From Chloroflexota bacterium (GTDB taxonomy: Bacteria; Chloroflexota; UBA6077; JACCZL01): 64,000 nucleotides of DNA. Below the pieces are notes generated by a model. That model was given only the letters and a program-made list of their open reading frames with translations. It did not search any database and was not told the DNA's origin. The stretch covers positions 1-64,000 of the forward strand of contig JADZEM010000015.1 of assembly GCA_020850535.1 (NCBI GenBank), given 5' to 3'. Every line of letters begins with the position of its first letter. Position 1 is the first letter of the stretch. Made by a program: the position numbers and the translations under genes. Positions 44,353 through 63,109 of this stretch are shown piece by piece.

Positions 44353-44748
44353 ATGGGGCCGAGCGGGCAGCCAGTCAGGCCAGAAACCCGCGTACTTGTC
44401 GTCGATGCTGACGCCAGGAGCCTTGAGACCCTGGCCGTCGCGCTGCTCGACAGCGGGTTCGCCGTGCGGACTGCTGCGAGCGCCACGGAAGCGCTTGCCG
44501 AAGCACGGAAGCGCCCGCCTTCGTTGATCCTCAGCGACATCGCCATGCCGGGCATGGACGGCTTCCAGCTCTGCGCCGCCTTCCGTGGGGATCCCGGATT
44601 GGGAAACGTACCCGTCGTCCTGCTGGCCGGCGGCCAGAACGATCCGCGCCTGCGCGAGCGCGGTGCGACGGCGGGCGCTTCGGACTACCTGACCAAGCCC
44701 ATCGACCTTCCACGGCTGGTGCAGGTTATTCGCGGCCTGTCGGCGTAG
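44353..44748 (+). CDS. Single-domain response regulator
   Basis: A 131-residue CheY-like receiver. VLVVDADARSLE gives the acidic pocket, LILSDIAMPGMDGFQL the phospho-acceptor Asp (about residue 60) and SDYLTKPIDLPRLV the conserved Lys. The usual Ser/Thr after beta-4 is replaced (VVLLAGG). There is no output domain, so it probably works by protein-protein contact. No histidine kinase is adjacent. It starts the signalling stretch with the degenerate GGDEF and PhoB-type genes. Confidence 0.8.
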   Translation: MGPSGQPVRPETRVLVVDADARSLETLAVALLDSGFAVRTAASATEALAEARKRPPSLILSDIAMPGMDGFQLCAAFRGDPGLGNVPVVLLAGGQNDPRLRERGATAGASDYLTKPIDLPRLVQVIRGLSA

Positions 44749-44899
44749 GGGCCCGCTCGGGGTCGGATCGAGCGCTCTCGCATCGTTCAGCGGCGATTTC
44801 AGGCAAGTTCGCGAGCGAAAGCGTCGCTCGGAGCCGTTCCGGGACGTTGTTCATCTGTGGACAGGCTCGCGGCGATATGCCGTGCGGGAGGCCGCCTCG

Positions 44900-45739
44900 A
44901 TGAACGAACGCCCAGCGAATCCGATGCGTCTGCGTGCGACCGCCGCCATGATCTGGTTTGCCACGGCGGCCGCCGTCTTCGTCACGACGGGCGAAGTCGC
45001 CGCGCACTACGCCGGATTGGCCGCGCTTCTCTCGGCGGCTGCCGCCGGCCAGTTCTTGCCATCCAATCGCCTCGTGGTCGCCGCCAGCCTCGGGCTGGGG
45101 ACGCTGGCGCTGGTGATGCTCTGGGCGGCCGGTGACAACCCGGAGGCCGGCGCACTCGGCGCGCTGTCGGTCGCCGCAAGCTGCCTCGTGGCGCGGTGGT
45201 CGCGCGCCACGGCTCCGCCCCGCCCGATGGCCGCGGAGCAGGGCCGCCAGCTGGTGGCCGCCCCGGCCGGCTCGCGCCTGCCAGCCGGCGTAGCCGACGA
45301 GCAGTTGCTGGAGCGGCTGGCCGTGCATGAGATGACCCGCGCACGCCGCTACGAGCATCCGCTGACGCTGCTGCTGATCGAGATCGACGGCTGGCCCGCC
45401 GTCTATGGTGGCCGCGAGCGGCGCGCCGTCGAGGAGCGCCTCGCCGCCCTCGCCACGCGAGCGCGGCGGCTGCTGCGCGATGTCGATGCGATTGGCCTGC
45501 ATGGCGACTCGCAGCTTGCGGTGCTGCTGCCCGAGACGCCGCTCGACGGCGCGCTGGTCGTCGCGGCCCGCATCGAGGAGACCGCCCGCCAGGATCTCGA
45601 CCTGTCGGTGCTGCTCGGCGCGGCGGTCTTCCCCGACGACGCCGTCACCGTCGAATCGCTGCTGCACGAGGCCGGCGAGGCCCTGGAGCTGGCACGCCTC
45701 GAAGGGACGGGCATCGCCCGGCGGGTGGTGCTGCGCTAA
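44900..45739 (+). CDS. Membrane protein with degenerate GGDEF-like domain
   Basis: A 279-residue protein. Three or four hydrophobic helices fill residues about 12-105. The C-terminal 160 residues follow the GGDEF fold (HEMTRARRYEHPLTLLLIEI for the first helix-strand, then LHGDSQLAVLLPETP where GG(D/E)EF should be). Lacking the motif, it is unlikely to make cyclic di-GMP; it may bind nucleotide or act as a sensor. GGGAGG lies eight bases before the ATG at 44900; a GTG at 44882 is the alternative. Confidence 0.6.
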   Translation: MNERPANPMRLRATAAMIWFATAAAVFVTTGEVAAHYAGLAALLSAAAAGQFLPSNRLVVAASLGLGTLALVMLWAAGDNPEAGALGALSVAASCLVARWSRATAPPRPMAAEQGRQLVAAPAGSRLPAGVADEQLLERLAVHEMTRARRYEHPLTLLLIEIDGWPAVYGGRERRAVEERLAALATRARRLLRDVDAIGLHGDSQLAVLLPETPLDGALVVAARIEETARQDLDLSVLLGAAVFPDDAVTVESLLHEAGEALELARLEGTGIARRVVLR

Positions 45740-45859: not shown

Positions 45860-45889
45860 CACCCTCGTGATCCCGAGGGTGTGAGGCCG

Positions 45890-46600
45890 ATGGCAGTCCA
45901 GCGACGACGCATTCTCCTGGTAGACGACGAGCCACGCATCCGCGACTCGGTCCGCATGAACCTGGAGCTTGAGGGCTTCGACGTCTTCGAGGCGAACAAT
46001 GGCCAGGAAGCGCTCGACAAGGTGCGCCTCGCCATGCCAGACCTTGTCGTGCTCGACGTGATGATGCCCGACATGGACGGCTTCGAGGCGCTCCGCGAGC
46101 TGCGCCGCTTCTCGACGGTGCCCGTCATCATGCTGACCGTCAAGGCCGACGAGCGCGACGTTGCGCGCGGCCTGGAGCTGGGTGCCGACGACTATGTCGC
46201 CAAGCCGTTCAGCCAGGTCGTCCTGACGGCCCGCATCAAGGCTGTTCTGCGGCGCGCCGAGCTGCCGCCGCCGGCACCCCGCCAGTCGATCACCGTCGAC
46301 GACCGCCTCAGCATCGACTTCGAACGGCGGGAAGTCATCGTCGACGGGCAGAAGGTCCAGCTGCGACCGACCGAGTTTCGCTTGCTCTACCATCTCGCCA
46401 GCAACCCGGGCGCAGTCCTCTCCCACGAGACGCTCTTGTCGCGCGTGTGGGGTCCGGAGTATCGTGACGCGAGCCACTATCTGCGTCTATACATCAACTA
46501 TCTGCGGCAGAAAATCGAGCTGGATCCCTCAAACCCGCGCTACATCCTCACCGAGCGCGGCGTGGGCTATCGCTTCATCGACTACACGCGCGACACCTGA
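45890..46600 (+). CDS. OmpR/PhoB-type response regulator
   Basis: A 236-residue regulator. The receiver has [13 protein letters not shown], phospho-acceptor Asp in [14 protein letters not shown], Thr in [12 protein letters not shown] and Lys in DDYVAKPFS. The winged-helix domain (about 135-235) has [17 protein letters not shown] and the recognition helix region [20 protein letters not shown]. Such regulators bind tandem direct repeats about 11 bp apart. No kinase gene is adjacent. An exact six-copy 11-bp array starts 100 bases downstream of its stop and is a plausible target. A GTG at 45881 is an alternative start. Confidence 0.9.
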
Positions 46601-46699
46601 GCTTCCCCGTCCGCTTGCGACACAACCGGCGCGCAGTTCGCGCGCGAGCTGTGCCTCCACCACCCGTCCGTATCCCCCTGATCCCCGGTCCCCCGGGCC

Positions 46700-46761
46700 G
46701 TTAATGGTTCGCTAACGGCCTTCTCATGCGGCTCTTACGTTCTGCTCACACCTCCTTCATG
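46700..46761 (+). promoter_or_regulatory. Six 7-bp direct repeats in exact 11-bp phase (PhoB-type operator)
   Basis: GTTAATG, GCTAACG, TCTCATG, TCTTACG, GCTCACA and CTTCATG begin at 46700, 46711, 46722, 46733, 46744 and 46755, each separated by four bases. The pattern is xYTxAYG (last base A once). Spacing of 7+4 is the layout of PhoB/PhoP boxes. The final unit ends nine bases before a TATCAT box, the geometry of PhoB-activated promoters in which the operator replaces the -35. Confidence 0.65.
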
Positions 46762-46770
46762 TTCGCCCCC

Positions 46771-46776
46771 TATCAT
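46771..46776 (+). promoter_or_regulatory. TATCAT -10 box downstream of the operator array
   Basis: TATCAT is nine bases after the last repeat of the array. It would place transcription start near 46783, heading toward the SOD gene 555 bases away. Confidence 0.5.
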
Positions 46777-46782
46777 CATGCT

Positions 46783-47337
46783 CGGAGCGAGAATCATCGG
46801 GCGCCAGCAACGGTCTGGCCGTCCGATTCAGGCGCTCCAACCTGGAGCACAGGCAGCGCATCTCTGGCCCACATCCTGCGTACATCCTGACGGTTCGACC
46901 TGAAGAGGTTGGCGGCGTAGGCATCCACCCCGGTCCGTTTGGTTGAAGGGACTGGCGATGGACTCTCGGGTCTCGCCCCAGCCTGTCGATAGGTAGACCC
47001 TCGTCCCCAGCCCCCAGGAACTTTGCCGGGGAGGCCGGGGGACGGGGGAGTCCAAAAAGCACCACCGCCCCGTTGCGCGGCCACGCTCGGGTGTCCCCTG
47101 TGACCACCATCGAGCGTCGCTACGCCGCACGGCCCGCACACGTCGAGGCCCCCGCTGACAGGCGGCGCGGTGGTACCATGAGCCAGTGTCACGATCGGTG
47201 CAGCCCCTCGGGCTACCGGATCGGCACTGGCTCGTTTCATGCGTGGGCGCGGTCCGCAGGACCGTACCTGCCATGAGGGGGTGCGCTACCGGCCGGACGT
47301 GGCCGCTGGCGCATGGCTACGGAGGAATGAGGTAGAG
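46783..47337. other. 555-bp region without a supported gene
   Basis: Only weak overlapping frames on both strands are present, none with a convincing ribosome site or domain. The region holds an imperfect GC-rich palindrome at 46996-47051 (CCCTCGTCCCCAGCCCCC paired with GGCCGGGGGACGGGGGAG), similar in style to the hairpin in dnaX, and a TGGTACCAT extended -10 at 47171-47179 that could serve the SOD gene. It could be a long leader or a non-coding RNA. Confidence 0.4.
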
Positions 47338-48126
47338 ATGCGAGCTGCTATTGGCATTGCTGCTGGCGCGCTGTTGCTGGTGAGTTCCACCACGGCGTTT
47401 GCCCAGTCGCCGGCCGCGACGGCCGAGCTGAAGACGGCTGACGGCAAGAGCGTGGGCATGGCGACGTTCACCCAGGAGAGCGGCGGCGTTCGCCTCAAGG
47501 TGCAGGGCGTCGGCATGCCGCCCGGCGACCACGGCATTCACGTCCACGCGGTCGGCAAGTGCGACGCCCCAGACTTCATGACGGCCGGCGGTCACTTCAA
47601 CCCGGGCAACAAGCAGCATGGGCTGAACAACCCGCAGGGCGCGCATGCGGGCGACATGCCCAACCTGAAGGTGAACGCCGACGGTACAGCAGCATTTGAC
47701 GCGCTGCTGAAGGATGCCTCCACCGCATCGGGCGCTGGCTCGCTGTTCGGGCCTGAGGGTACCGCGTTGGTGATCCATGCCGGCGCCGACGACGGTATGA
47801 CCGATCCGTCGGGCAACAGTGGTGGCCGCATCGCCTGCGGCGTCATCATGCGTGCGGCCGGCACTGCCGCGGCGGCGCCGGCGGCCCAGCCGTCACCGGC
47901 CGCGAAGCCGGCCGGCCCCGCTCCGGCCGCGTCACCCGCACCGGTCACCAAGCCGGCGGCGCCGGCCCAGGCTCCTGCCGCTGCAAAGCCGTCCGTCGCG
48001 GCGTCCCCGGCCGCGCTGCCGCGCACTGGTATCGCGGGCGCACCCATCGACCTGGCCATCCCGGCCGCTGCCACCGGCCTCGGCGCGATTGTCGCGGGCC
48101 TGGCGATCTGGCGGCGACGGCGGTAA
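47338..48126 (+). CDS. Cu/Zn superoxide dismutase with LPxTG-type wall anchor
   Basis: A 262-residue protein. A signal peptide (cleavage near AFA) is followed by a SodC domain (about 27-175) with copper/zinc-ligand segments DHGIHVHAVGKCD, MTAGGHFNPGNKQHG, GDMPNLKVNADG and VIHAGADD, and the second disulfide Cys in GRIACGVI. Then come about 55 Ala/Pro-rich residues and a sorting-like tail: LPRTG, a hydrophobic helix and RRRR. It would dismutate superoxide outside the membrane. GGAGG is about 13 bases before the ATG, with GAGGTAGAG directly preceding it. Confidence 0.85.
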   Translation: MRAAIGIAAGALLLVSSTTAFAQSPAATAELKTADGKSVGMATFTQESGGVRLKVQGVGMPPGDHGIHVHAVGKCDAPDFMTAGGHFNPGNKQHGLNNPQGAHAGDMPNLKVNADGTAAFDALLKDASTASGAGSLFGPEGTALVIHAGADDGMTDPSGNSGGRIACGVIMRAAGTAAAAPAAQPSPAAKPAGPAPAASPAPVTKPAAPAQAPAAAKPSVAASPAALPRTGIAGAPIDLAIPAAATGLGAIVAGLAIWRRRR

Positions 48127-62140: not shown

Positions 62141-63109
62141 GTGCAGCAGCAGCGCGGTCCCCGCCCGTTTGACATTACCACCCGCCTGCTGATCGACACC
62201 GATCCGGAAGGTTGGCTGCGGTGGGCCGGCTACGAGGTGGACGGTGTGCCGCGACCGATAGACTCGGAGGTGTCCACCGTTCTGGCCGAGGTCGACAAGG
62301 TGCTGTACGTGGATAGCCCACACCCGTGGCTGGCGCACTTCGAGCTGCAGTCCGGCTACGACCGCACACTGCCAATTCGCCTCCTCCAGTATTACGGGCT
62401 GCTGCTTCGCCGCCACGAGCTGCCAATCGAATCGACCATCGTGCTGCTTCGGCCGCAGGCAGATGGGCCTGACCTGGACGGTCGCTTCCGCCACCACGGT
62501 CCGCGTGGCAACCTCTTGGTAACGTTTGCCTACAACGTCATTCGCGTCTGGGAGCGGCCCGTAGCCGAGTTCCTTGATAGCAGCCTCGGATTGCTCCCCC
62601 TGGCGCCGCTCGCACGCGTCCGGCCTGCGGAGCTACCGGAGGTCATCGCGCACATTGACGAGCGGCTTCAGCGAGATGCGGCCGGCGAGCTGCGCGGCGA
62701 TCTGTGGGCCAGCATCCGCATCCTGATGGGGTTGCGGTATGATCGAGATCAGGTGAATCATCTGCTCCGAAGGGTTCGGGAGATGCGCGAGTCAGTCACA
62801 TACCAGGAGATTCTCGAAGAGGGCCGCGAAGAAGGCATGCGGCGTGGGCTGGCGGCAGGCCAGCTCAGAGGCCAACTTGAAGGGCGGATTGAAGGGCGGA
62901 TTGAAGGCCGGCTCGAAGGCCGGCTCGAAGGCCGGCTCGAAGGCGAACGGCGCGTGCTGCTCAGGTTTGGCACGGCGCGATGGGGTGAGCCGACTGCTGA
63001 CGTGCGCGCGCAGATCGAGGCCCTGAGTGATCCCGCCGACCTCGAACGTCTGGTGGATCGCTTGCTTTCCGCAGTCTCGTGGGAGGATCTGCTCGACCGT
63101 CCCGCATGA
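62141..63109 (+). CDS. Rpn/PD-(D/E)XK nuclease-like protein with tandem EGRLEGR repeats
   Basis: A 322-residue protein. The N-terminal 210 residues resemble the transposase-like Rpn/YhgA nuclease group: DKVLYVDSP then WLAHFELQSGYD (D...ExQ), followed by LPIRLLQYYGLLLRR. Residues about 228-275 contain EEGREEGMRRGL and a tandem EGRIEGRIEGRLEGRLEGRL tract coded by 12-base repeats (62878-62945), a coil that is common in this family and varies in length. GTG 62141 is chosen because AGGAG is five bases upstream; TTG 62102 and GTG 62135 are alternatives. Confidence 0.7.
   Translation: MQQQRGPRPFDITTRLLIDTDPEGWLRWAGYEVDGVPRPIDSEVSTVLAEVDKVLYVDSPHPWLAHFELQSGYDRTLPIRLLQYYGLLLRRHELPIESTIVLLRPQADGPDLDGRFRHHGPRGNLLVTFAYNVIRVWERPVAEFLDSSLGLLPLAPLARVRPAELPEVIAHIDERLQRDAAGELRGDLWASIRILMGLRYDRDQVNHLLRRVREMRESVTYQEILEEGREEGMRRGLAAGQLRGQLEGRIEGRIEGRLEGRLEGRLEGERRVLLRFGTARWGEPTADVRAQIEALSDPADLERLVDRLLSAVSWEDLLDRPA

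Follow-up and report, generated by a model that had tools for sequence, protein, structure and literature searches.

A phased direct-repeat array behind a response regulator gene of a Chloroflexota bacterium and its probable place in a heat-shock regulon

In the genome of a Chloroflexota bacterium a response regulator gene of the OmpR/PhoB family is followed by a row of evenly spaced direct repeats and a -10-like box, which raises the question of what this element controls and which protein reads it. The stretch analysed, referred to below as the window, comprises 64,000 nucleotides and all plain coordinates refer to it. The putative promoter consists of the following elements:

46700 to 46706, forward strand: unit 1, GTTAATG
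46711 to 46717, forward strand: unit 2, GCTAACG
46722 to 46728, forward strand: unit 3, TCTCATG
46733 to 46739, forward strand: unit 4, TCTTACG
46744 to 46750, forward strand: unit 5, GCTCACA
46755 to 46761, forward strand: unit 6, CTTCATG, in the place of a -35 element, with the same 9-bp gap to the -10 box as in eight relatives
46771 to 46776, forward strand: -10-like box TATCAT, beginning nine bases past unit 6

The initial annotation had described six 7-mers in exact 11-bp phase (starting at 46700, 46711, 46722, 46733, 46744 and 46755), a nine-base gap to TATCAT and a regulator gene about 100 bases upstream; all the 7-mers and the box were found at these places, with the 3' end of the regulator gene at 46600, 99 bp short of unit 1. 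The units share the core YTNAYR and between 46700 and 46761 show no deviation from the 11-bp phase, and transcription is predicted to start near 46783. Such a six-unit chain at 11 bp is unique within the 64-kb window, where YTNAYR chains at the other spacings tried (7 to 21) never exceeded two units. The spacers between the units are mutually unrelated in sequence.

The window and 60 Markov-simulated windows were compared at periods 8-14 using a column score that presupposes no consensus. The array was the top period-11 site of the window and outscored all 60 simulated windows; in the real window only the tandem repeats at 62877 (period 12) and 29385 (period 14) scored higher. A matrix derived exclusively from the corresponding gaps of eight other genomes ranked 46700 first in 64 kb with a score of 30.7, the next unrelated site reaching 12.1, and since the window array did not contribute to the matrix this check is not circular. 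The DNA search with 46600-46900 against 101 relatives gave no match at the array itself, and the Rfam search gave nothing near the gathering score.

The regulator gene and the genes preceding it are:

44353 to 44748: lone receiver protein
44882 to 45739: GGDEF protein
45881 to 46600, forward strand: response regulator of the OmpR/PhoB family with Response_reg and Trans_reg_C domains, the proposed activator

The likely start codon of the regulator is the ATG at 45890, and no histidine kinase resembling those tested turned up in the 64-kb window. The nearest named homologues belong to Chloroflexota and the nearest solved relatives are KdpE (4kny) and MtrA. The protein scored 199 bits with the curated PhoB model TIGR02154 (cut-off 296), 153 bits with NF007546 (PhoB, cut-off 471) and 205 bits with the curated KdpE model NF007820 (equivalog cut-off 325), and judged by these cut-offs it is neither PhoB nor KdpE and is classed as KdpE/MtrA-like. 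In the aligned orthologues both the phosphorylation residues (D12, D13, D56, T83, K105) and the core of the recognition helix, HYxRLYxxYLRQK, are conserved.

Orthologues of the window regulator, 60-63 % identical and with hsp20 as the next gene, were found in eight named Chloroflexota genomes (loci L004, L006, L008, L009 of Leptolinea tardivitalis, L012, L013, L014 and L019). The gap between regulator and hsp20 contains a phased array in all eight, which none of 300 gap shuffles reached, and a TANNNT hexamer lies exactly 9 bp past the last unit in each, as in the window. Conservation of the 11-bp phase in relatives, proposed earlier as a check, was thus borne out, and the 9-bp gap is conserved as well. 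Among the named genomes, regulator loci without hsp20 directly downstream carry no such array except L017, and in about ten the regulator has neither hsp20 nor an array beside it. At L021 hsp20 runs convergently and has a phased triplet in its own upstream region. The order in G008 is regulator, kinase, array, hsp20, and in the window it is regulator and then array, without hsp20. The regulator loci of G001, G002, G003, G009 and G013 have no array alongside, and in three of these genomes (G001, G002 and G009) the regulator is preceded by a kinase with a GAF domain; these arrayless loci and preceding kinases indicate that the linkage has been rearranged several times.

The host genome (G000, 7.65 Mb in 227 contigs) was scanned for comparable elements. 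The exact four-unit pattern occurred in only three places in 7.65 Mb, the reversed-pattern control gave zero, and allowing one mismatch added arrays on contigs C225, C166 and C118, the last of which is probably due to chance and was left out of the regulon. The host arrays accepted besides that of the window, with genes identified by Pfam, are:

contig C77: array before hsp20
contig C174: array before htpX, between htpX and a divergent pair of another response regulator and kinase
contig C225: array before clpB
contig C166: array before grpE, followed by dnaK

All convincing host arrays other than that of the window precede proteostasis genes. A scan of 29 genomes of the class for six units with up to three mismatches gave matches before hsp20 in G001, G002, G003, G009 and G008, and no match to the reversed pattern in any of the 29. 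The four-unit search added grpE-dnaK arrays in G001 and G002, at a distance from the gene similar to that in G000, and a second hsp20 array in G002. On targeted inspection G013 proved to have an hsp20 array and a shorter one at htpX, two hsp20 genes of G007 had weaker arrays, and the hsp20 genes of G006, G010, G011 and G014 had none. Matches in G013 (C133, C52 and C262), G012, G014 and G017 were regarded as likely chance or simple repeats and were not counted, and an exact five-unit search of 400 genomes of the phylum, which outside the host returned mostly perfect tandem repeats, was discarded. Across the arrays the bases between units vary freely and the phase and the unit core persist, as is expected of an operator. 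In most sister arrays a -10-like hexamer, TACA(A/G)-like in those of family f1, follows the last unit at about 10 bp, and at most loci other than the window the array is no more than about 150 nt from a start codon.

The distribution of arrays and regulator was compared in 16 genomes of the order. Heat-shock arrays were present in eight of the nine genomes with a close regulator orthologue and in none of the seven without, a raw count that ignores phylogeny and includes some incomplete genomes, three members lacking hsp20 in the latter group and the weak arrays of G007 in the former. The match could partly reflect common descent. In G004 the regulator orthologue is present and no heat-shock array was found.

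Recurrence of the arrays before hsp20, grpE-dnaK, clpB and htpX would place them in a heat-shock regulon. The explanation we favour, and hold to be probable as a whole, is that an activator-dependent promoter belonging to this regulon uses the array as its operator, to which a regulator binds. The array itself, its return at heat-shock genes, the nearly constant distance to -10-like boxes and the repeated linkage of regulator, array and hsp20 can be read from the sequences; binding by this regulator, activation in place of repression, the stress signal and the window transcript are inferred from these comparisons. Several copies of an OmpR/PhoB-family regulator would bind head-to-tail, and the product of 45881-46600 is most likely the protein concerned, being the best candidate binder of the window array. 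Six units would offer room for up to six subunits, that is three dimers, and the bound regulator would replace the -35 element and bring RNA polymerase to the -10 box, which lies 9 bp further on. The arrangement appears to function like an activated promoter of the OmpR/PhoB family. The earlier proposal of a promoter with the PhoB/PhoP layout that escapes ordinary annotation is supported by these comparisons to the extent of an OmpR/PhoB-family operator overlapping the -35 region, as is the stress half of the proposed phosphate- or stress-responsive promoter, given the arrays at grpE-dnaK, clpB, hsp20 and htpX. The same element before these genes in the host and relatives would make them one heat-shock regulon, and on this evidence the heat-shock response of this bacterial branch seems to be run by a two-component-type regulator. 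A more specific version can be put forward only tentatively: in this Chloroflexota lineage a KdpE-like response regulator, with as many as six of its subunits stacked on a phased array, would switch on the core heat-shock genes grpE-dnaK, clpB, hsp20 and htpX as a positive two-component system of OmpR type, and the window copy would drive a stress-induced RNA missing from the annotation or a sodC message with a long leader.

The window copy differs from its counterparts in what lies downstream:

47180 to 47233, forward strand: stable hairpin in a putative leader that would run from the array to sodC, membership uncertain
47338 to 48126, forward strand: sodC, Cu/Zn superoxide dismutase (PF00080, E 3.4e-40), a possible target

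The hsp20 gene expected about 110 bp downstream of the array is absent. No gene is recognised before sodC, which begins about 555 nt from the predicted transcription start and more than 570 nt past the array, and no consensus sigma-70 promoter was found between array and sodC. In 46601-47340 no remnants of Hsp20, GrpE, DnaK, ClpB or HtpX were detected, the antisense reading frames matched no Pfam family, and a search for a dispersed repeat at 46900-47340 showed a single copy. The relatives of sodC in G001, G002, G003, G009 and G013 have no array. The hairpin, about 100 nt upstream of sodC, gave a folding energy of -47.8 kcal/mol (z -3.3 for 47170-47260) and matched no Rfam family. The sodC product has a proline- and alanine-rich tail that ends with LPRTG, a run of hydrophobic residues and RRRR, resembling wall proteins anchored by sortase.

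The window copy thus has regulator, array and promoter in the usual order but not the hsp20 that comes next in Anaerolineae-type relatives, and its promoter may drive an unrecognised RNA, serve sodC through a long leader, or stand idle. The last of these, a relic that was inherited together with the regulator, later lost its hsp20 and yields no useful transcript, concerns the window copy alone and is compatible with the main explanation. It is a real but lesser possibility: the order of regulator, array and hsp20 in relatives speaks for it, as does the stretch of about 550 nt without hsp20 remnant or recognised gene, but this copy retains every one of its six units as well as the -10 box, and is fuller than most working ones. 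The six intact units were taken to argue that the window promoter is in use.

Another OmpR-type winged-helix activator could be the protein that binds the arrays, either the htpX-side regulator of contig C174 or a SARP, and this we consider rather unlikely. The C174 array does sit between that regulator/kinase pair and htpX, but the best matches of this regulator in G001 and G002 were 56 % and 54 %, where those of the window regulator reached 82-83 %, and as the sole candidate it was set aside for want of a close orthologue in the array-bearing sister genomes. SARP operators also have 11-bp units overlapping the -35 region (PMC10972967), but no SARP was seen among the array-adjacent genes, and the known settings of SARPs are antibiotic clusters.

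The arrays might instead be heat-shock operators for a repressor that leaves the DNA on stress, be it HrcA, HspR, CtsR or a novel protein. CIRCE and HAIR are inverted repeats, and the heptads of CtsR differ in phase. At the grpE promoter of the host (contig C166) the upstream units of the array overlap with a CIRCE copy carrying a single mismatch (L339, 2748-2774; TTAGCACTC-N9-GATTGCTAA in the coding strand), so HrcA probably acts at least there, and HrcA repression and activation by the regulator are suggested to meet at this one promoter. No other array has CIRCE nearby (five or more mismatches), the grpE promoters of G001 and G002 are without it, and the best match to TTAGCACTC-N9-GAGTGCTAA in the window has five mismatches and lies far from the array. 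Direct repeats ending 9-10 bp upstream of a -10 box suit an activator, and general control by a repressor is improbable.

About as improbable, or slightly more so, and not supported by these results, is the phosphate half of the initial proposal, by which a PhoB/PhoP orthologue would bind the array as a Pho box and the promoter would answer phosphate starvation. The family does use a 7+4 layout, and similar arrays precede two phosphate-type genes in other genomes, but the adjacent regulator falls below the PhoB cut-offs, and the arrays of the host, G001 and G002 stand at chaperone genes with none found at phosphate genes. The two exceptions are a phased YTNAYR array before a pstS-type gene in the more distant relative G007 (contig C138; L343, 766-805) and another before a pstB-like gene, recognised by translation only, in an Anaerolineae genome (L317, about 1561, minus strand); both are probably true Pho boxes of the phylum. 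The pstS-type array of G007 means that the motif alone cannot separate members of the OmpR family.

Chance or a simple tandem repeat is refuted as an origin of the array by the simulations, none of which reached its score, the empty reversed-pattern controls, the independent-matrix match and the unrelated spacers.

Among known systems, the regulator-bound heat-shock operator favoured here can be compared with KdpE at kdpFABC of E. coli. KdpE binds TTTATA and TTTACA separated by a 5-bp spacer, which requires R193, R200 and T215, and the 6-bp half-sites and spacer add up to the same 11-bp phase (PMC3264566). The half-sites, written TTTATA-N5-TTTACA, fit YTNAYR-N5-YTNAYR, which supports the favoured explanation; the three residues align with R199, R206 and T221 of the frame starting at 45890, and the core of the recognition helix is nearly identical. 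KdpE differs in having two half-sites in place of six and in controlling potassium uptake; the window regulator has no KdpD-like kinase beside it and misses the KdpE equivalog cut-off. PhoP of Mycobacterium tuberculosis likewise binds 7-bp motifs with an obligatory 4-bp spacer as tandem head-to-tail dimers, with a higher affinity for three and four motifs than for two (PMC4832192), but its motif and regulon are others. SARP promoters of Streptomyces have heptameric direct repeats, classically in 11-bp units, overlapping the -35 region (PMC10972967), whereas SARPs are one-component activators of antibiotic clusters and usually use two or three repeats.

The nearest functional parallel found is Hik2-Rre1 of cyanobacteria, a two-component system controlling the chaperone genes groES, groEL, dnaK2 and htpG, whose sensor has a GAF domain like the kinases beside the regulator in G001, G002 and G009 (PMC13421787). 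Rre1, however, is of the LuxR/NarL type and recognises GTNCGGK, without phased arrays. A search of the open-access literature found no paper on such a regulon in Chloroflexota.

Control of bacterial heat-shock genes is usually ascribed to sigma-32, HrcA, HspR or CtsR, and OmpR-type arrays at grpE-dnaK, clpB, hsp20 and htpX would, if the explanation is correct, represent a different solution. An OmpR-family regulator, CpxR of E. coli, controls the same membrane protease, htpX, but its regulon is that of envelope stress, with another box and without arrays at dnaK or clpB. The phylum is widespread and its gene regulation little studied; the regulator and operator form a testable pair, found also in the named strain Leptolinea tardivitalis, and the arrays provide a sequence rule for such regulons, namely four to six YTNAYR units, one per 11 bp, with a -10 box at 9-10 bp.

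Three four-unit arrays on contig C117 of G004 (L345, 4884, 8353 and 15208, minus strand), of which one precedes a receiver-like protein gene and another precedes glycan synthesis-like genes, possibly belong to a different regulon with the same geometry.
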